DNA of 53,169 nt, taken from positions 1-53,169 of IMG/VR virus record IMGVR_UViG_3300032323_000656; one strand, written 5' to 3'. The stretch is from a virus. The first letter of the stretch is position 1, and the number at the start of each line of letters is the position of its first letter. A model generated the notes under the pieces. The model had not been told where the DNA came from, made no database searches, and saw only the letters and a program-made list of their open reading frames with translations. Position numbers and translations under genes: made by a program. Positions 7,974-49,389 of this stretch are shown one piece after another.

Positions 7974-8647
7974 TACTTCAACTCACGGCCTGTTGGCAAT
8001 TCTTCTTCGCCACCGGCAGCGTTAGATAAAGCAAATTCATCACCTGCTGGCTCTAATTCTGGACTTGGAACTCCGGTACCACTTAGATCGTTGCCCATAG
8101 GAGCTTCGCCTTTTAGTACAGCAACCGCATTACTCAATGCATCTTTTGCTGCCTTAACTGCATCTAACAATGTACTAAATGTTTCGTCAGCACTTTGTCC
8201 AAATGTTTGTCCTTGCTCTTGTCCAAACGTTGTCTTCATTTTTTCTTCTAAAGGCATTAGTTCGTCAGTTTGCATTTGTGCTACATCTTCAGCCATCTTT
8301 TGCAAGTCGTCGACCATGTTTTGAGCAACAAGGATAAGTTCGGCTTGTGCTAAATCTTCGCCGCTTTGTTCGTTCATTTTGCGAGTTGTTCTCATTGGAC
8401 CAATCTCTTTAAGAATATGACGAAGAGCTTCGATAATCATTGTATTCTTTACGTAAGTAGCGTCATTTTGAAAGCCAACTTGTGTACTGGCCATTTGATG
8501 GTTTTCCATAACTAGTTTACTGATCAAAGATTGTACTTTGACTGCATCTCCGTGTGCAGCTAATTTTAAGCCGTAGTGGCTGTTTAAAAAGTTTTCTACT
8601 ACACGTTGTTTACGTTGTGCAGGGTTAAAAATTTCAGAGGTATTCAT
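7973..8647 (-). CDS. Conserved protein of unknown function, late gene
   Basis: 224 residues. The N-terminal half is helical (NPAQRKQRVVENFLNSHYG, EALRHILKEIGP). The middle is Gln/Met/Glu-rich and coiled-coil-like, and the C-terminal 60 residues are Gly/Pro/Glu-rich and probably disordered. No catalytic motif is seen. It is preceded by a GATAAATA late promoter (8666-8673) and an AAAGGA ribosome site. A head or scaffold-related role would fit the composition but is inference. Confidence 0.75.
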   Translation of the reverse strand: MNTSEIFNPAQRKQRVVENFLNSHYGLKLAAHGDAVKVQSLISKLVMENHQMASTQVGFQNDATYVKNTMIIEALRHILKEIGPMRTTRKMNEQSGEDLAQAELILVAQNMVDDLQKMAEDVAQMQTDELMPLEEKMKTTFGQEQGQTFGQSADETFSTLLDAVKAAKDALSNAVAVLKGEAPMGNDLSGTGVPSPELEPAGDEFALSNAAGGEEELPTGRELK

Positions 8648-17018: not shown

Positions 17019-17729
17019 ATGCTAGAAATAATATACCTCCTCATCGTAACACATATCACCATCGTTGCTGTTACTTGCTTTTTACATAGAAGCCAAGCAC
17101 ATAAATCAGTAACATTTCATCCCATAATTAATCACTTCTTTAGACTATGGCTATGGTTAACTACCGGCATGATTACTAAACAATGGGTCGCTATACATCG
17201 TAAACATCATAGCACGACTGATAAAGAAGGTGATCCGCATAGCCCGCATGTACATGGAATATGGAACATTGTACTACGTGGAGTTTACTATTATTATATT
17301 GCCGGGAGAAATAGTAAAATGATTGTGAACTTTGGTAGAGGAACTCCTGACGATTGGATAGAACGTAAAATATACACTCCATACAATTATGCAGGAGTTA
17401 CTATAATGTTGCTGATAAATTTATTTGTATTTGGCTGGCTTGGTTTTGTTATATGGGGTATCCAAATGATTTGGATACCATTTTGGGCTGCTGGTATTAT
17501 AAACGGTCTTGGGCACTGGTCAGGATATCGTAATGGTGAGACTAAAGATCGAAGTACGAACTTACTTCCATTAGGCATATGGATCGGCGGAGAAGAACTA
17601 CACAATAACCATCACTTGAGTCCTGCTAGTGCAAAATTAAGCAAGAAATGGTTTGAATTTGATATAGGCTGGTTTTATATTAAAACACTTAGCTTGTTAG
17701 GACTGGCCACTGTTAACACTGTACACTAA
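17019..17729 (+). CDS. Fatty-acid (acyl-CoA/acyl-lipid) desaturase
   Basis: 236 residues, short for the family but with all three histidine boxes: HRSQAH (about 23-28), HRKHH (about 60-64) and HNNHH (about 197-201). Hydrophobic segments place it in the membrane, as for delta-9 type desaturases. It would introduce a double bond into host fatty acids and change membrane fluidity during infection. No Shine-Dalgarno is seen; a GATAAGTA box ends four bases before the ATG. Its 3' end overlaps the convergent mini-DnaE gene by 33 bases. Confidence 0.92.
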   Translation: MLEIIYLLIVTHITIVAVTCFLHRSQAHKSVTFHPIINHFFRLWLWLTTGMITKQWVAIHRKHHSTTDKEGDPHSPHVHGIWNIVLRGVYYYYIAGRNSKMIVNFGRGTPDDWIERKIYTPYNYAGVTIMLLINLFVFGWLGFVIWGIQMIWIPFWAAGIINGLGHWSGYRNGETKDRSTNLLPLGIWIGGEELHNNHHLSPASAKLSKKWFEFDIGWFYIKTLSLLGLATVNTVH

Positions 17730-24292: not shown

Positions 24293-26377
24293 TTAGAAAG
24301 ACTTAACTGCCATAACACCAACCGAGTTCATATTGTTGCCAGATACTCCGCCAACATTGAACTGGCGTGCCACGCTTACGTTAACTCGATCATATCCCTT
24401 ACCAATTACAGTATAACCCAGGACCAAGTCCATTGGTTTAACTTGTTGACGAAGACTAATTGATTCTGTGCTAACAAGTGCCTTTGCATCTGCGCCATCA
24501 CCATTGTCAGTAAACTCATAACCAGTTACACCAGTAATAGTTGCCGAACCTTTTCGCACAGTTACAGGACTAACCAATGTCAAACTCACAGCGTCTTTAT
24601 TTCGGAACACATTGTTCTTAGCCACTGCCAACCGCCAAGTATCACTGCTAATACGATTACCAAGTTGAATCATCGAATCTGCCACACTTCCTGCGCGAGT
24701 GACACCAAAGCCATATGCACCAGACACTGCAACATCACCGAACTTACGTTCAGTTCCAAGTTGGAAATAGTTAGTAGAACTGTTGCCAAATGCCATTGCA
24801 CCTGAACCAATGTTACCAAGGAAGCCTGACTTTTCTGTCATCGAGCCAATCTGCACACTATAGCTGACGCCTTGTTCAGTATAGGAAACTTCAGTAGCTG
24901 TGCCTGCTTGGCTTTGCATCATTTTAACGCTGTAATTTTCATTTACAGGTGTAGCAATTTCATTATAGCCTGCGGGGCTCATTGCCAAGTAAGAACTAGA
25001 CGCACGATAAGTCATTACAGGATTAGCCGCTACTGCTCGAGTCATATCCAAAGTATAGTTGCGATTGTAGCTGTCCAGGCCTTGAACGTTTTGAAGCACA
25101 CTACTAGTCTTAAGGCTAGCACTACCGCTAGACGCAACACCTGAAGCTGTCAACGGAATAGCTTTATTGTATCCAGTAAAGCTGGCAATATTAATCAGTC
25201 CTTGCGGCTGTGTGGCTTTATCAAAATTAACCATACCCCAACCATAAACTTCGTCTACACCTTTGGCGCCCATATCAGTTGCAGTGGTCTTAACCAAATG
25301 AACCAACTGAGCAGAACTAAGTTGTGGCCATGCTTGTTTGAGCAGTGCAATACCACCACTGACTACTGCGGCCGCAGGGCTAGTGCCTGTCACTGCACCA
25401 ATGCCGTTAGTGCCGCCTGCTTTAATACCTGCGGCAGTTCTAGCCGCATCAGGAACTGCACCGGACATACCAGTGCCGTGTGCTACGACATAAAAATCTT
25501 TAACATAGTATTTGTCATTACAGACATTGCCGGTAAAACTATTGCACAAAGTGCCTGCTTGGTTACTACTGTTATTCATAGTCCAACCACCTTTACCATC
25601 AGCAACCACATTGCCTACAATCAGCACACGACCACCCATGAGCAAATTGCCATTGGCATCTGTCTGAGTTGCAAATGCCGCTGGCATCTGTGCATACTTT
25701 GTACCTGCATTACCTGATGATACAACAATAACGGACTTGGATGTTGCATTAGCAAATGCGGCAACATCTTTCATCGAATTGCCGTAAAGAAAACTTTTGC
25801 CTCCTGTTGCTGTACTGTTATAATTACTAGGAGCACGGAAAATGCCAGGACTAACTTCTACTGTGGTTCTTTGAAAAGTAGGATCAAAGTTTGACCCCAA
25901 GCTAAGATTGATAACGCTAGCGCCTGCTTGCTCTGCCAACGTCATACCTCTGTGAACTGCACTCATATTAATACCAGTGCCAGTCAATCCATTGATCGAG
26001 CTAATCGAACTATTTGCTTGGAACAACACTAGTTGAGCATCAGGAGCCACACCAACTGTACCCCACCCGTCTAGCTTGCCAGCGGCAATACTGGCCATTT
26101 GAGTACCATGCACACCTACCGCCGAAGCCGTCGAACCTACATTAGTTAGGCTAATTACTTTGCCTTTGATATCGCTATGATTGATATCAAAGCCGCTATC
26201 TACAACACCAATAATAACACCTTTGCCTGTGATACCACGTGCCCATGCCTGCGGAGCACCGACTGCTGTTAAAAATTTAGTTTGAGTTTCTGCTTCTCGA
26301 TTGGCAAAAACTTGAGCTTGCACACTTACTGCCAAAGTGGAAACTGCCAATGCGATAACGGTGGGTTTAAGTTTCAT
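24293..26377 (-). CDS. Exported subtilisin-like (S8) protease with autotransporter-like C-terminus
   Basis: 694 residues. An N-terminal signal peptide (basic start, hydrophobic core, cleavage near VQA-Q at 20-22) leads into an S8 domain. The catalytic triad is Asp60 (VVDSG), His90 (GVHGTQ) and Ser333 (GTSPAAA), with Asn223 in the oxyanion hole. Residues about 440-694 are beta-rich with repeated amphipathic strands and end MAVKSF, a terminal aromatic typical of outer-membrane barrels. Autotransporter proteases of Gram-negative bacteria share this plan, though the barrel region is not a confident match. The gene has its own consensus promoter. A host-surface role is inferred. Confidence 0.88.
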   Translation of the reverse strand: MKLKPTVIALAVSTLAVSVQAQVFANREAETQTKFLTAVGAPQAWARGITGKGVIIGVVDSGFDINHSDIKGKVISLTNVGSTASAVGVHGTQMASIAAGKLDGWGTVGVAPDAQLVLFQANSSISSINGLTGTGINMSAVHRGMTLAEQAGASVINLSLGSNFDPTFQRTTVEVSPGIFRAPSNYNSTATGGKSFLYGNSMKDVAAFANATSKSVIVVSSGNAGTKYAQMPAAFATQTDANGNLLMGGRVLIVGNVVADGKGGWTMNNSSNQAGTLCNSFTGNVCNDKYYVKDFYVVAHGTGMSGAVPDAARTAAGIKAGGTNGIGAVTGTSPAAAVVSGGIALLKQAWPQLSSAQLVHLVKTTATDMGAKGVDEVYGWGMVNFDKATQPQGLINIASFTGYNKAIPLTASGVASSGSASLKTSSVLQNVQGLDSYNRNYTLDMTRAVAANPVMTYRASSSYLAMSPAGYNEIATPVNENYSVKMMQSQAGTATEVSYTEQGVSYSVQIGSMTEKSGFLGNIGSGAMAFGNSSTNYFQLGTERKFGDVAVSGAYGFGVTRAGSVADSMIQLGNRISSDTWRLAVAKNNVFRNKDAVSLTLVSPVTVRKGSATITGVTGYEFTDNGDGADAKALVSTESISLRQQVKPMDLVLGYTVIGKGYDRVNVSVARQFNVGGVSGNNMNSVGVMAVKSF

Positions 26378-26404: not shown

Positions 26405-26433
26405 ATTATAACATAAAGCCCAATTAACGTCAA
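26405..26433 (-). promoter_or_regulatory. Sigma70 promoter for protease gene
   Basis: TTGACG (26433-26428), a 17-base spacer and TATAAT (26410-26405) with an extended -10 TGT. The six -35 bases are exactly the loop of the terminator hairpin 26415-26446. An AAGGAG site follows before the ATG at 26377. Confidence 0.88.
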
Positions 26434-26446
26434 TTAATTGGGCTTT
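26415..26446 (-). terminator. Terminator hairpin after AAA ATPase gene, loop equals next -35 box
   Basis: A 13-bp stem (26415-26427 with 26434-26446) and a 6-base loop, starting 5 bases after the ATPase stop. The stem is A/T at the base with GGGC in the middle; the U-tract is short (UUUAUGUU). Confidence 0.75.
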
Positions 26447-26451
26447 GATAA

Positions 26452-27525
26452 TTAAGCTTCTGCTCGTTTAAGAATAGTAGTTTCTGCAAGACGCTTCCAG
26501 TTATGTGCTGACATCTTACGCAGGTCTGCAATCTTGAGCACTGTACGAAGGCTCAGTTCACGCAGACGTGCACGTTCTGTCCACATAAAATCTACGATTT
26601 CTTGAGAGGCACCATCTTCAAAGTCGTAGCTGTCAAGCATACCATCACGCACAATCTGCTTAATACGCAAAAACTTATCACGCTGGGTATCCATTGTCAA
26701 GTCCAAATAGTGGCAACGGCTTTCCAATGCGTCCAAATGGTCTTTCAACTTTTTGCTACGAACGTGCTCAAACTTGATGTTGGTGATAAAAATCACACTA
26801 CCTTTAAAGTCAAAACGATCTGGAATGCCTTCGTTGCTCAACATACGGCTATCAGTATTCCAAGAGATTGTACGCTTCTTAGAACTGTCCAAAGCGGCCT
26901 TCAAAATGTTCAAGCTCAAGTCGTCTAGCAAAATGCTGTCGCAGTCGTCGAACACTAGCACATTATTAGCGTCACTGTATTTGTAAAGTTTGGCATACAA
27001 GCCCAGTGCACTCATAGCACCTTTAACAACTTCAAAGCGGCTTCTACGATTAGCCATCTTGTCAAACAATGCGGCTTCTTCCAATTTCTTCTCAACACCA
27101 AAGCTCTTGCCCACGCCTGGAGGGCCGCTAACAATCATAGCACGAACTGCACCAGTAGTAGTACCTTCTGTCATTTCTTCCAAAATGTCAAAACGTTCAC
27201 GGATACGCTCAATAGCCTGCTCGTCTGTTTCTGTGTAGACTTCTGGTTCTTTTGTAGTAACCAAAGAAAACACTTTGTCGTCTTTATTTGCTTGACGACG
27301 TTGGCTATCTGACATATCTGCTACTGTTTGTCCACTCACTGTAATATCCTCCATGCTTTTAATTTTAACACGAACACTCTTGCCTTCAAAGCCCAAAGTG
27401 CCGTTATCTTGAACTGTTACATACATGCCTTTGGCGCCAGTCTTGACATCTGATACCAAACGGAATGTTTCATTGCGAACTTTAGTACCGCGGTACTCGC
27501 CAGCAAAAATAGTTACATTAGCCAT
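26452..27525 (-). CDS. AAA-family ATPase
   Basis: 357 residues. An N-terminal beta domain (about 1-85) precedes the AAA core: Walker A GPPGVGKSF (about 135-143), Walker B NVLVFDDCDS, sensor-1 VIFITNIKF and an arginine in LDALESRCHYLDL as a possible finger. The C-terminal helical part is basic. It is unlike gp44 or RuvB in length and N-terminus; its partner is unknown. It is monocistronic, between a consensus promoter and a hairpin terminator. A remodelling role in replication or morphogenesis is possible. Confidence 0.85.
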   Translation of the reverse strand: MANVTIFAGEYRGTKVRNETFRLVSDVKTGAKGMYVTVQDNGTLGFEGKSVRVKIKSMEDITVSGQTVADMSDSQRRQANKDDKVFSLVTTKEPEVYTETDEQAIERIRERFDILEEMTEGTTTGAVRAMIVSGPPGVGKSFGVEKKLEEAALFDKMANRRSRFEVVKGAMSALGLYAKLYKYSDANNVLVFDDCDSILLDDLSLNILKAALDSSKKRTISWNTDSRMLSNEGIPDRFDFKGSVIFITNIKFEHVRSKKLKDHLDALESRCHYLDLTMDTQRDKFLRIKQIVRDGMLDSYDFEDGASQEIVDFMWTERARLRELSLRTVLKIADLRKMSAHNWKRLAETTILKRAEA

Positions 27526-38551: not shown

Positions 38552-40942
38552 TTATGATAACTCGCCTGTGTTGACTACACGGATTGGAATGTAAATGAAT
38601 TCAGCAGCCTTGACTGGCTCAATTGCAACGTCAATCCAAAGTTCGTTTCTGTCAATTTTAGCAGGTGTGTTATTTGTTTCATCACAAACAACAATAAAGT
38701 CATAGATAGCACGTTTGGCCAATAAATCGCCTAAGAAGCCATCAAAAACTTGTTTAACATTTGATCGTGTTACTTTATCGTTTGGTTCAAAGATAAACGG
38801 ACGAGCTAATGGATCAAAACGCTCACGCAAGTAAGCAAGTAAACGACTTACGTTTACACGATCCAATGCGCTAGCAAAGCTCTGTAGTGTACGTTGACCG
38901 AACACATACAAACCTTGTCCTGGGAAACGTGCAATTGGGTTAATACCAACTCTGCTACCGTCACCGTACAATGTATCACGTTGACCATTTGTCAGTGATA
39001 CTGCAACAAATTCACCTTCTGCATTGATGTAACCTACGTTACTTGCATTAGTTACAACACCGCGTGTTAAACCAGCAGGAGCAAACCAAGGATAAGAAAT
39101 TTGGTCGTTGTATGCCATTGTACGCAATACAATATGACTTGCAGGAACAACAACATCATTACCATTTAGATCTGTAGCAAGGCCACTTGGGTAATATGCT
39201 GCTGCTGAACTAGAAGATGTTGTTAAACCATCTTCACCGTTTGTTAATGCGTTTTTACCGCTCATCCAGTCGATCAATGTTTGACCTTGAGGTGCTAAAC
39301 GGAATGGAGTATCAACAACGATAAATGCAGTTTCTTTACGATCTGTATTTAATGCGATCATTTCATCTAACAATTCTGGATATCCTGGAGTTGCAATTAA
39401 AGTAAAGTATGTCATTTCTTCACGCAATGCCTCACTGCCGTTAACGGCTGCTTGCATAGCACGTACAACTGATTGACGTTGAGCTTTACGCAACATAAAC
39501 GGACTGCCGTCTTGCTTGTTGCCACTAAATGTGTTCCATACACCTGTTGTAGAATTATATTGCTTTACATTACCTGTAGATACGATAGAGTTCCAGCACA
39601 TCATACCATCTGGATATAATAATGGATCAGGAGCTTGATTATCAACTAGTGTTGCTCCACCGTTATTACTTGAGTCATTGGCTGTTGTTGTTAAATCAGC
39701 AAATATAATACCATCCGGAGTTGTTTGGTCAGTACGATCTCTAGAAGACCAAGTAGATCCGTCGAACACATAAATTGATGGATAGTTTTCTAAGTCGCCA
39801 CTGTCAATCCATACGTCATTTGCGTTTGGACTAGCCGGAGCAGTTGAATCGATAGTTACGTTGCCGCTTATTGGCTCCCAAACACCATTGGATTTGATAT
39901 ACAAATCTGCTTGCAAGTTTGTGTTGTACCATAAAGTACCATTAGTAGGAGCTCCGGCTGGTGCTGTTTCACTTGCTACTTCATCTAATGATCCCCATGT
40001 GCCATTGAATAATTTTAATTCTATATTAGCACTACCGGTTGTTGTTTTTGCATACACTTTGCCGTTTGTTAATGAACTACCGAAACCTGCTGAAGCAGCG
40101 GCATCACTTGCATATACTGGTACGCTAATAGTTGTCCATGGGCTAGAGCTAGGCATTAATGCAGAGTTATATCTCTTAACTACTAGCTTCAATCCACTGT
40201 TTGGATTAGTTGTCTTTAACCAGATATCACCGATTGCACTAGCAGATGGAATATTAAAGTGTTCTGCTACATAAACTGTTCCGATAACGGAATTAGAAGT
40301 TGTACATATTTCCCAGTTTCCAGCAACCTTCTTATATACTTGATGACTAGATACTGCTGTTGTTGAAACCACTGCATAGTTTCCGTTAGCCCCAAAAGCA
40401 GAAGCTGGTACTACACCTGCGCCGTTAGCAGTGTCTGCAAGATCTGTAATAATCAAAGGAGTCTTTGAAACCCAGTTTGTTGATCCTGTTCCAGTTGCTT
40501 CGAAAATACCCCAACTTGTATTGTCTAAGTCTAACCAATATGTACCGTTCGCTGGAGCACCAGTAGGTTCTTCGATACTTGGTTCTAGTTGTGCTACGTC
40601 GATGTCTGCTCGCAGAACATACGCACGGTTAGCAAGACCTAAGAAACTATACGCAGCCATTAAGCCATATTCGTTAGTTTCATCTCCGTGTACAGGAGTA
40701 CCGTCAATGACTTTAAATTGCGGTTGACCGAATAATTCAACTAGCTCTCGTTGGCTAGTTAATAAGTAAGGCTTGGCTGCATTTGTAGGTTGTGTACCTA
40801 AAGCATAGCCTGTGCCGCTTACGTTTGATTTGTTTGATTCTGTTGCTAAAATAATTAGTGGCACTGTGCCTTGACCGGCTGAACCGTATTGACTTTCGTC
40901 TGTGACACTAACTGCAACGCCTGGGGATACTAATGTAGCCAT
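38552..40942 (-). CDS. 18: Tail sheath protein with inserted repeat modules (T4 gp18)
   Basis: 796 residues against 659 in T4. The N-terminus (LVSPGVAVSVTDESQYG) and C-terminal half (NVSRLLAYLRERFDPLARPFIFEPND, then DFIVVCDETNNTPAKIDRNE) are classic contractile sheath. Between about residues 115 and 480 are several short modules of the form P-x-x-G-x-x-W-x-D ... LYV-x-x-G-x-W (for example GAPTNGTLWYNT, NANDVWIDSGD). These probably form surface domains on the tail. It has an exact TATAAATA promoter and AAGGAG site. Confidence 0.95.
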   Translation of the reverse strand: MATLVSPGVAVSVTDESQYGSAGQGTVPLIILATESNKSNVSGTGYALGTQPTNAAKPYLLTSQRELVELFGQPQFKVIDGTPVHGDETNEYGLMAAYSFLGLANRAYVLRADIDVAQLEPSIEEPTGAPANGTYWLDLDNTSWGIFEATGTGSTNWVSKTPLIITDLADTANGAGVVPASAFGANGNYAVVSTTAVSSHQVYKKVAGNWEICTTSNSVIGTVYVAEHFNIPSASAIGDIWLKTTNPNSGLKLVVKRYNSALMPSSSPWTTISVPVYASDAAASAGFGSSLTNGKVYAKTTTGSANIELKLFNGTWGSLDEVASETAPAGAPTNGTLWYNTNLQADLYIKSNGVWEPISGNVTIDSTAPASPNANDVWIDSGDLENYPSIYVFDGSTWSSRDRTDQTTPDGIIFADLTTTANDSSNNGGATLVDNQAPDPLLYPDGMMCWNSIVSTGNVKQYNSTTGVWNTFSGNKQDGSPFMLRKAQRQSVVRAMQAAVNGSEALREEMTYFTLIATPGYPELLDEMIALNTDRKETAFIVVDTPFRLAPQGQTLIDWMSGKNALTNGEDGLTTSSSSAAAYYPSGLATDLNGNDVVVPASHIVLRTMAYNDQISYPWFAPAGLTRGVVTNASNVGYINAEGEFVAVSLTNGQRDTLYGDGSRVGINPIARFPGQGLYVFGQRTLQSFASALDRVNVSRLLAYLRERFDPLARPFIFEPNDKVTRSNVKQVFDGFLGDLLAKRAIYDFIVVCDETNNTPAKIDRNELWIDVAIEPVKAAEFIYIPIRVVNTGELS

Positions 40943-40967: not shown

Positions 40968-40975
40968 TATTTATA
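40968..40975 (-). promoter_or_regulatory. 18: T4-type late promoter (TATAAATA) for sheath
   Basis: TATAAATA on the minus strand, 25 bases before the ATG at 40942. A short GTTATA/TATAAC inverted repeat overlaps it but does not cover the AAGGAG site. Confidence 0.75.
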
Positions 40976-43153: not shown

Positions 43154-44005
43154 TTAGTCCACAGCCGGAGTAAAAGCCATTACCTGTTGCTTATTTTTCT
43201 CAATTTTGACTTCATCAAAATAAACAACTTGTGTGGGCATAGGCACACCATTTCTACTAACCAAAGTATTGTATATACCATACTTGGCGAAAAAGTTTCT
43301 TGCAGGATAGTTCACCAAAGGCCTATTAATAGAACCCTTTAATTGTTGATTTACATATACGTGAAGAAAACCCGAAGTTTGAGAAGTAGAAAAGTGCAGT
43401 GCTACATCGGTCCATTTGCCTTTCATTTCGTCAATCTTAGCCATTTTGATATCAGTGCACATTGTGGCTGCTGTGGCAGGATTGATCAGCTCTTGCCAGC
43501 ATAAATTGTATTCATTACCCAATGCATAAATTTGAAATAACGAAGGCAGCGATGCAAATCCTGCGTATTCTCCCGAAGGTCCGCCGCGAGGCTTAACTTG
43601 TCCAATTGTACTTTTTACAGTATTCGACGTTTCAAAATCGCTTGGCAAGAAAAGTGAGAAAGAAAACCAGTACTCTTCGCCGGTTGTCATATTTTGTTCT
43701 ACGAGCACTTCGGTTCTTGACCTATCTGTAGTGCAGTCGCTCCACGAAGCGTCAAAATGACAATCACCTGGTCGCAATTCAAATCGCTGTGCAAAATTAC
43801 CAGCTCTAGTAGGCTCCGGACTTTGCACTACTTGATACCCGTGGGCGGTATTGCTTAAAGATCTTGTGACTGTGATTTTTGTATATTTTTCAGGCGCTGT
43901 TTCGACATTTATATTTGTGGCGTTTGTGCTGCCACCGCCACATGCCGTTAGCGAACACCCGGTTAATAGCGATACAAGAACTGTAGCAATCAATTGTTTT
44001 TTCAT
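43154..44005 (-). CDS. Secreted lipoprotein with polysaccharide-lyase (heparinase/alginate-lyase-like) domain
   Basis: 283 residues. A lipoprotein signal is clear: basic MKKQ, hydrophobic core, lipobox LTGC (Cys17) with a second candidate LTAC (Cys22), then a Gly/Ser linker. The remainder is a beta jelly-roll with DRSRTEVLVEQN (lyase-type R-x-E pattern), YWFSFSLFLPSDF, WTDVALHFSTS and FFAKYGIYNT. These resemble PL7/PL13/PL20-type lyases. A host-envelope location and glycan cleavage are inferred. AAAGG precedes the ATG; it is coupled by a 4-base overlap to the upstream gene. Confidence 0.78.
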   Translation of the reverse strand: MKKQLIATVLVSLLTGCSLTACGGGSTNATNINVETAPEKYTKITVTRSLSNTAHGYQVVQSPEPTRAGNFAQRFELRPGDCHFDASWSDCTTDRSRTEVLVEQNMTTGEEYWFSFSLFLPSDFETSNTVKSTIGQVKPRGGPSGEYAGFASLPSLFQIYALGNEYNLCWQELINPATAATMCTDIKMAKIDEMKGKWTDVALHFSTSQTSGFLHVYVNQQLKGSINRPLVNYPARNFFAKYGIYNTLVSRNGVPMPTQVVYFDEVKIEKNKQQVMAFTPAVD

Positions 44006-47566: not shown

Positions 47567-48919
47567 ATGCAATATTTTTATGACGAACAAATAAGAAAAT
47601 ACCTAACGCAGTTTATGCGTATTCTTGGCGGCTTTAGTGTAAAGACTGGCAAAGATCGTAATGGCGCCGAATCTTATATTCAAGTACCTGTACGCTACGG
47701 TGACATTAATCGTATGGCTGCTCATATACTAAAAAATCAAAGTGAGAACATGATCAATACTGTTCCATTTATCAGTTGCTATGTTACTGATATGACTATT
47801 AGTGCTGAACGCAGAATGAATCCTACTCACGTAGATAAAGTCAAGGTATATGAAAAGAAATTTGATCCAGTTGCCGGAGAATATATAGACGGTGAAGTAG
47901 GTAATACTTATACCATCGAACGCTACATGCCTGTGCCCTACGATTTAACAGTACAAGTAGATATTTGGACCAGCAACACTGATCAAAAACTTCAATTAAT
48001 GGAACAGTTGTTAGTATTGTTTAATCCTAGTATTAATTTGAAAGTCAACGATAATCCGTTTGATTGGAGTAATCTAACTTATACAGAATTAGTAAACGTA
48101 GTTTGGAGTGTGCGACAAGTACCGCAGGGTACTGATGATATCATCGATGTCGCTGCCATGAACTTTACTATACCTATATTAATTAACCCTCCTGCAAAGT
48201 TAAAGCGTCAGACATTAATTCACACTATATTAACAGAAATACGCAGAAACAAAGAAGGTGAACAATTAGATTGGGTTCCTAGTGATCCTATCCCTAACAA
48301 AGAATGGCTTGTTATAACTTTTGAAAATTTAAAATTACAAGTTCAAATTCAAGGTGATCAAGCTATACTATTAAATAGTGCAGGCGGAGTTACAAATCAA
48401 AATGGTGATCCTTTGAGCTGGGTAGAAACACTAAAGCCATACGGCGAACTAAGACTAGGAATTAGTAATTTAAGATTACGTAGAGGCAGCGATCCTAGTG
48501 ATCCTAGTCAAGATATAGTTGCTATTATTAATGACATAGATTTATCGCAACCTAATATTGCAAATATAACTGTAGATTCTACTACATTACCTAATGTAAC
48601 TACTCCTGCTGTTGATGCTATTATTAATCCTACTAAGAGTGCTCCTGGTAAAAATTTACCTACAGCTACTACAGGACAACGCTATCTTGTATTAGAAGAT
48701 GTTCCTAATACCAGCGCATGGGGAATAACTAATGCACAAGCTAATGATATTATACAATACAACGGAAGTAGTTGGATTATCAGTTTCAGTAGTATAAGTA
48801 ATGTTAATGCTGTTGTATTGAATGCAACAACAGGGTTGTACTACGAGTGGCGCGAAGGTCAATGGATCAGTGCTGTAGAAGGTACTTATCAAAACGGATG
48901 GTGGAGATTATATCTTTGA
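47567..48919 (+). CDS. 15: Tail terminator / sheath stabiliser (T4 gp15)
   Basis: 450 residues, against 272 in T4. The N-terminal 230 residues are gp15: YFYDEQIRKYLTQFMRILGG, VPVRYGDINRMAAHILKNQS, YMPVPYDLTVQVDIWTSNTD and VAAMNFTIPILINPPAKLKR. The additional C-terminal part ends in a module with NDIIQYNGSSWIISF and YEWREGQWISA, related to the Trp-rich modules in gp18. It caps the tail tube and joins it to the head. It begins 2 bases after gp14. Confidence 0.85.
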   Translation: MQYFYDEQIRKYLTQFMRILGGFSVKTGKDRNGAESYIQVPVRYGDINRMAAHILKNQSENMINTVPFISCYVTDMTISAERRMNPTHVDKVKVYEKKFDPVAGEYIDGEVGNTYTIERYMPVPYDLTVQVDIWTSNTDQKLQLMEQLLVLFNPSINLKVNDNPFDWSNLTYTELVNVVWSVRQVPQGTDDIIDVAAMNFTIPILINPPAKLKRQTLIHTILTEIRRNKEGEQLDWVPSDPIPNKEWLVITFENLKLQVQIQGDQAILLNSAGGVTNQNGDPLSWVETLKPYGELRLGISNLRLRRGSDPSDPSQDIVAIINDIDLSQPNIANITVDSTTLPNVTTPAVDAIINPTKSAPGKNLPTATTGQRYLVLEDVPNTSAWGITNAQANDIIQYNGSSWIISFSSISNVNAVVLNATTGLYYEWREGQWISAVEGTYQNGWWRLYL

Positions 48920-49389
48920 AACAATTTAAAGGCGTCGGGGCGATTATAGTCAGTGAACAAACTGGCAAGGTTATGACTGTACTTCGTAGTCCTGAAGAAA
49001 GTTATCCTAATACTTGGACATTTGCTGGCGGCAAAGTCGAAGAAAATGAAAGCCCGAACAACGCATTAATTAGAGAACTCGACGAAGAATTACAATTAAC
49101 TAAGATCAAAAAAATAATTCCCTTACATAGATATCAAAGTAGAAGTAACGACTTTGTCTACGACACTTTTGTTGTTTTAGTTTCTAAGGAATTTGTTCCT
49201 GAATTAAACTGGGAAAACGCAGGATATGCGTGGACTAGCATAGATTCGTTGCCAAGTCCTTTACATCCAAAAGCAAGACAAATGATCAGTTCATCAAGAC
49301 TAATTAAGAAATTTAAGAATTTTTATAATTGGGTAGATAAAAAGAATGGCAGAGATAATACAGTTTCCAAGAAAAACCCAACCAATTAA
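48916..49389 (+). CDS. Nudix hydrolase, TTG start
   Basis: 157 residues. The Nudix box is complete: G-x5-E-x7-RE-L-x-EE-L in GGKVEENESPNNALIRELDEELQ. It hydrolyses nucleoside-diphosphate derivatives, perhaps oxidised nucleotides or NAD-type compounds. The start at TTG 48916 is supported by GGTGGAG 9 bases upstream and a TTGA overlap with the gp15 stop. An ATG at 48898 inside gp15 is an alternative. It is in the same transcript as gp14 and gp15. Confidence 0.88.
   Translation: MKQFKGVGAIIVSEQTGKVMTVLRSPEESYPNTWTFAGGKVEENESPNNALIRELDEELQLTKIKKIIPLHRYQSRSNDFVYDTFVVLVSKEFVPELNWENAGYAWTSIDSLPSPLHPKARQMISSSRLIKKFKNFYNWVDKKNGRDNTVSKKNPTN

Follow-up and report, generated by a model that had tools for sequence, protein, structure and literature searches.

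A phage lineage encodes a predicted exported S8 peptidase with an outer-membrane-type barrel at its C-terminus

Most known phage enzymes that act on the bacterial surface belong to the virion, e.g., tail depolymerases, and most known exclusion proteins that phages place in the envelope are small blockers. T5 Llp and similar phage proteins block receptors after export to the infected cell's outer membrane (PMC9586334). In bacteria, the subtilase autotransporters of type Va, i.e., Ssp of Serratia, NalP and SphB1, combine a Sec signal, an N-terminal S8 passenger and a C-terminal barrel ending in Phe, and the passenger of Ssp is available as structure 8e7f (PMC9977779). The amyloid transporter FapF is a 12-stranded autotransporter-like barrel (PMC5557850). 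The literature covered by a search for a phage-encoded surface subtilase contained no paper on one. Here, we describe such a candidate gene in a window of 53,169 nucleotides (positions 1 to 53,169 of IMG/VR virus record IMGVR_UViG_3300032323_000656), which was the whole stretch of DNA analysed; its features are collected in Table 1.

Table 1. Location of the protease gene, its domains and promoter, and of the other genes compared with it, in window coordinates
Feature	Position	Strand	Basis
Gene for S8 peptidase with C-terminal outer-membrane-type barrel	24293..26377	-	ORF, 694 aa
Predicted Sec signal peptide, residues 1-22, VQA/QV	26312..26377	-	sequence heuristic; kept in homologues
Peptidase_S8 domain, residues 51-381, D60/H90/N223/S333, Cys278/Cys286	25235..26227	-	Pfam and alignments
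Linker/plug-like region, residues 393-480, conserved LDxYNRNYTxD motif	24938..25201	-	alignment and model
C-terminal beta-barrel, residues 481-694, 12 long strands, terminal Phe	24296..24937	-	AlphaFold2 model, PDB matches
Sigma70-type promoter TTGACG-17-TATAAT, TG before -10 (extended -10)	26405..26433	-	consensus match 11/12
12-bp palindrome whose 6-nt loop is the -35 box of the protease gene	26416..26445	-	covariation and folding
Gene for an AAA+ ATPase (phrog_1250), a conserved neighbour upstream of the protease	26452..27525	-	PHROG match and synteny
Tail sheath gene with T4-type late promoter TATAAATA near 40975	38552..40942	-	promoter-class contrast
Lipoprotein-type leader and Polysacc_lyase domain (PF14099, 1.2e-23)	43154..44005	-	Pfam and leader heuristic

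The protease ORF is complete, with an ATG start and the Shine-Dalgarno sequence AAGGAG immediately 5' of it. A Sec signal had been claimed by an earlier sequence-only reading of this DNA, and the N-terminus, MKLKPTVIALAVSTLAVSVQA followed by Q, is indeed compatible with a Sec/SPase I signal as judged by a heuristic and is kept in homologues. The 22-residue leader (motif VQA/Q) contains no lipobox, in which it differs from NalP and SphB1, both lipidated (PMC9977779). Residues 51-381 match Pfam Peptidase_S8 (PF00082) at 1.8e-29, with 103.4 bits against a gathering cut-off of 21.8, and the Asp, His and Ser of the catalytic triad and the oxyanion Asn occur in the order of the S8 family. The triad, which the same reading had described as intact, is invariant together with N223 in an alignment of 14 phage homologues, and across 26 phage and bacterial homologues the sole exceptions are two bacterial ORFs truncated at D60. 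By sequence, the protein is an S8 peptidase, and proteolysis is predicted. There is nearly no space for an N-terminal propeptide before the S8 domain. Its only two cysteines are both invariant, which is consistent with an oxidising compartment, and the best match of the domain to a solved structure by sequence is the Ssp passenger 8e7f (6e-22).

AlphaFold2 was applied to the full-length protein, for which an alignment of 14 close phage relatives gave a pLDDT of 33, too low to use, and to residues 394-694, for which 26 phage and 14 bacterial sequences were aligned and the pLDDT was 84.2 and the pTM 0.78. This second model has 12 long strands at residues 482-691, preceded by a compact linker with no single pore-crossing helix. 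Foldseek searches of the PDB returned outer-membrane or organellar barrels as nearly all top matches (best E 1.3e-3, TM 0.3-0.4), with FapF giving the highest TMq (0.42) among the PDB matches listed, and such consistent matches at modest scores make the barrel class clear, and not the exact barrel type. The only member found in BFVD, A0A6J5TBB6, is an independently predicted viral homologue and fits the barrel with a TMq of 0.92 at 40% identity. The model points to an outer-membrane-type barrel fold, with strand number and closure as predicted, and every complete phage homologue ends in Phe except that of contig L172. The beta-rich C-terminus ending in Phe that had been noted earlier therefore stands, and modelling gave a barrel-like structure where a soluble domain would have spoken against the idea. 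The extent given for it, residues 440-694, does not hold, as the barrel covers about 482-694 and residues 393-480 form a conserved linker or plug.

Sequence searches with the barrel in Pfam, NCBIfam, PHROGs and the PDB found no family that covers the domain. Some members match outer-membrane models in Pfam weakly (OmpA_membrane, 7e-6), and two have weak NCBIfam matches to FapF. Membership in the classical autotransporter family was considered and rejected, since none of 40 members matched PF03797 at E<=1 and a profile comparison (hhalign) against 14 subtilase-autotransporter barrels gave a probability of 1.1%. The term autotransporter-like, used in the sequence-only reading, is thus apt for the architecture, i.e., an N-terminal passenger, a C-terminal 12-strand barrel (closure predicted) and a terminal aromatic residue as in type Va, and inapt for the family. 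As this barrel shows no profile kinship with those of classical autotransporters, the S8 domain need not be translocated and may face the periplasm. We also observed that the model of another BFVD entry, A0A6J5L9S5 (831 aa, uncultured phage, annotated with a repeat domain), matches the barrel with an E of 9e-8; in phages, the barrel may bear passengers other than S8.

Bacterial homologues were missed in the genome search by a profile built from phage sequences only and were found by a mixed phage and bacterial barrel profile. This mixed profile detected them in 9 of 300 Burkholderiales genomes, in 60 of 289 sampled genomes (~20%) of the Alphaproteobacteria, the class to which Maricaulis belongs, and, at the level of the phylum (Pseudomonadota), in 30 of 398. 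Among the 55 bacterial barrel loci examined, S8 lies in the same ORF in 51, so the pairing of barrel and peptidase is the rule and no phage accident, and F, Y or W is the last residue in 52. Phe, Tyr and Trp are the usual last residues of BAM substrates. The A2 barrel profile matches bacterial S8 proteins at 6e-14, phage and bacterial proteins align colinearly, and the phage protein, with a barrel-profile match and an S8 passenger in one ORF, belongs to this uncatalogued S8-linked barrel family. Such proteobacterial surface proteases are also encoded in L023 and L029, labelled as Klebsiella pneumoniae and Lactobacillaceae MAGs, for which mis-binning or mislabelling is likely.

The window comes from a virus contig with T4-type terminase, UvsX, UvsY, SSB, primase, DnaB-like helicase, sheath and tube genes, i.e., the gene complement of a T4-like myovirus, and its terminase is closest to large phages of the PA5oct/Atu_ph07 type (50-53%). 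Searching for the gene in other phages, a check proposed with the original claim, located relatives of the protease on ~30 IMG/VR contigs from many samples, the largest of 233 kb. At AAA+ (phrog_1250) loci with room for it, the protease lies directly downstream in 28 of 35 and elsewhere on the contig in one; the remaining six, which are fragments, lack it in the stretch covered, so the gene is not universal in the lineage. Sequenced, annotated phages, in a set of 50,697 records, gave only two matches, both partial and at ~30% identity. Phage and bacterial proteins separate in the S8 tree as well as in the barrel tree, with the phage ones in a single clade, and the gene was most likely acquired once by the phage lineage. 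Every domain is under purifying selection, with dN far below dS (0.04/0.50 for S8, 0.016/0.41 for the barrel). The local G+C of the gene (0.45, against 0.36-0.41 in its surroundings) raised the question of host DNA misassembled onto a phage contig; the synteny in many independent phage contigs and the single phage clade exclude this and uphold the view that the protease is phage-encoded.

Within the phage clade the two halves of the protein have different histories. The proteins of the window and of contig L016 share 18-60% over residues 41-360 and 72-90% after residue 361. In AU tests, with groups that were named after the trees were seen, holding the barrel clade together on S8 data was rejected (p 6e-6), and the barrel data in turn rejected the S8 groupings with p values from 1e-46 down to 1e-50. 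From these alignments and trees we conclude that catalytic S8 passengers have been swapped between phage lineages on a conserved barrel, as is expected if the substrate differs among hosts.

The near-consensus sigma70 promoter reported before the gene proved sound, its -35 and -10 boxes being kept in 15 homologues. Sites of this quality (11/12) number 11 in the window, compared with 1.8 +/- 1.4 in shuffles, and sigma70-type sites precede the primase, UvsX, SSB, AAA+ protein and other genes. T4-type late promoters of the form TATAAATA were observed on the minus strand at 40975, 46460 and 50927, before the sheath gene and two others. Since the protease promoter is of the sigma70 type and not T4-late, its sequence suggests expression early or in the middle of infection. 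The palindrome that has the -35 box in its loop carries five compensatory pairs, with a covariation score reached by 0 of 500 shuffles, and folds at -17.3 kcal/mol (z -4.8). It probably terminates the AAA+ gene and may also act as an operator, and regulation through it could shift the timing of the protease.

Other exported enzymes are encoded by the same phages. In the close relatives L188, L190 and L194, the lipoprotein-type leader of the window's polysaccharide lyase reappears nearly identical, as MK(K/T)QLIATVLISLLTGCSLTACGG, on an unrelated alginate-lyase-like body. Such an alginate-lyase-like protein occurs in 7 of 15 related contigs, with an export signal in all whose N-termini were read, and in L006 its gene lies directly behind the protease. 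In L089 this place is taken, from position 8079, by an exported protein with a signal sequence that resembles an alpha/beta-hydrolase, a fold recognised by eye only. The window also encodes, on the opposite strand, a fatty acid desaturase (PF00487, 9.7e-16; 17019-17729, +), for which a change of membrane lipids during infection is possible, and a NUDIX hydrolase (PF00293, 3.7e-16; 48847-49389, +).

We propose that the infected Gram-negative cell would make the protease before the late phase from its sigma70-type promoter, export it via Sec and insert it into the outer membrane via BAM with its own C-terminal 12-strand barrel. Export and anchoring in the outer membrane are very likely on this evidence, and display of the S8 domain, which would be carried to the cell surface and held there as in subtilase autotransporters, is probable. 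Together with the exported polysaccharide lyases, the protease would then cut surface proteins and the surrounding polysaccharide and so remodel the envelope. The substrate and the benefit are hypothetical, as are the roles offered in the sequence-only reading (receptor shaving, capsule opening or feeding of the host); the benefit would most likely be that further phages are unable to adsorb (superinfection exclusion) and that progeny do not stick to debris after release. Exclusion and protection of progeny best explain why a lytic phage keeps the gene, why the promoter is not a late one and why the passenger varies. Taken whole, a surface-displayed subtilase that remodels the envelope with the lyases, most likely for superinfection exclusion, is our best explanation, held with a little less than even confidence, and exclusion as the main role is put forward tentatively. 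It is also conceivable, at a more speculative level, that these genes make up a programme that remodels the envelope from inside, in which a barrel-displayed subtilase with swapped passengers and lyases with differing catalytic bodies behind one conserved lipoprotein leader strip surface protein and polysaccharide, amounting to enzymatic superinfection exclusion.

An outer-membrane protease could instead serve lysis and release, loosening the outer membrane and matrix at the end of infection in place of spanins or beside them. The co-encoded lyases would suit egress through a matrix, and an enzyme that lasts could act late even when made early, but the sigma70-type promoter contrasts with the T4-type late promoter of the sheath gene, and the protease gene sits among replication and recombination genes and not beside an identified lysis cassette; we consider this role unlikely. 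A similarly low probability attaches to a barrel that merely anchors an S8 domain facing the periplasm, where it would cut host envelope proteins such as stress sensors, defence effectors or receptor precursors. Although the linker or plug is not modelled as a helix crossing the pore and the barrel lacks profile kinship with PF03797 translocators, the best sequence match of the S8 domain is an autotransporter passenger and an N-terminal passenger on a C-terminal barrel is the layout used for display.

Feeding of the host, with the surface protease supplying peptides during a long infection, would fit the frequency of homologues in environmental Alphaproteobacteria, which could be scavenging enzymes, and the lyases could serve the same end. 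Yet the fixed place of the gene in most members of the lineage and the exchange of passengers look more like a changing target than general nutrition, which makes this quite improbable. Least credible by far is that the gene is misassembled host DNA or encodes a protease of the virion whose N-terminus resembles a signal by chance, since the raised G+C is countered by the recurrent synteny and separate clades described above, by the phage-type promoter in front and by the conservation of signal and barrel.

The subtilase, the outer-membrane barrel and the autotransporter-like layout are all of known kinds; the novelty lies in their setting in a phage lineage, in an uncatalogued family of barrels, in the exchange of passengers and in the exported lyases that accompany them. 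If envelope remodelling by the displayed protease and lyases is correct, infected cells would be enzymatically re-surfaced during infection, which bears on co-infection, host range in mixtures and the breakdown of matrix. The finding also points to a widespread barrel family of Pseudomonadota that is missing from family libraries.

Among known proteins, A0A6J5TBB6 (Peptidase S8/S53 domain protein, uncultured Caudovirales phage, 689 aa) belongs to this phage family and is already in a database, annotated for the peptidase domain alone. The bacterial proteins with S8 and the uncatalogued barrel, e.g., L174 of Burkholderiales and L021 and L025 of Maricaulis, are like the phage protein in domain order, barrel family and terminal aromatic residue, and several share a related LD-x-x-(N/G)R motif; they differ in having 14-22% identity to it over the barrel and in being mostly longer, and the phage copies form their own clade. 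Ssp, NalP and SphB1 have the same layout of signal, passenger and Phe-ending barrel, but their barrel is PF03797 whereas that of the phage-encoded protein is not recognised as such. FapF, in contrast, lacks a protease domain and forms a trimeric channel for other proteins. T5 Llp, a small lipoprotein, acts by binding FhuA, whereas the phage subtilase would cut a receptor, and the analogy between them is one of role only.
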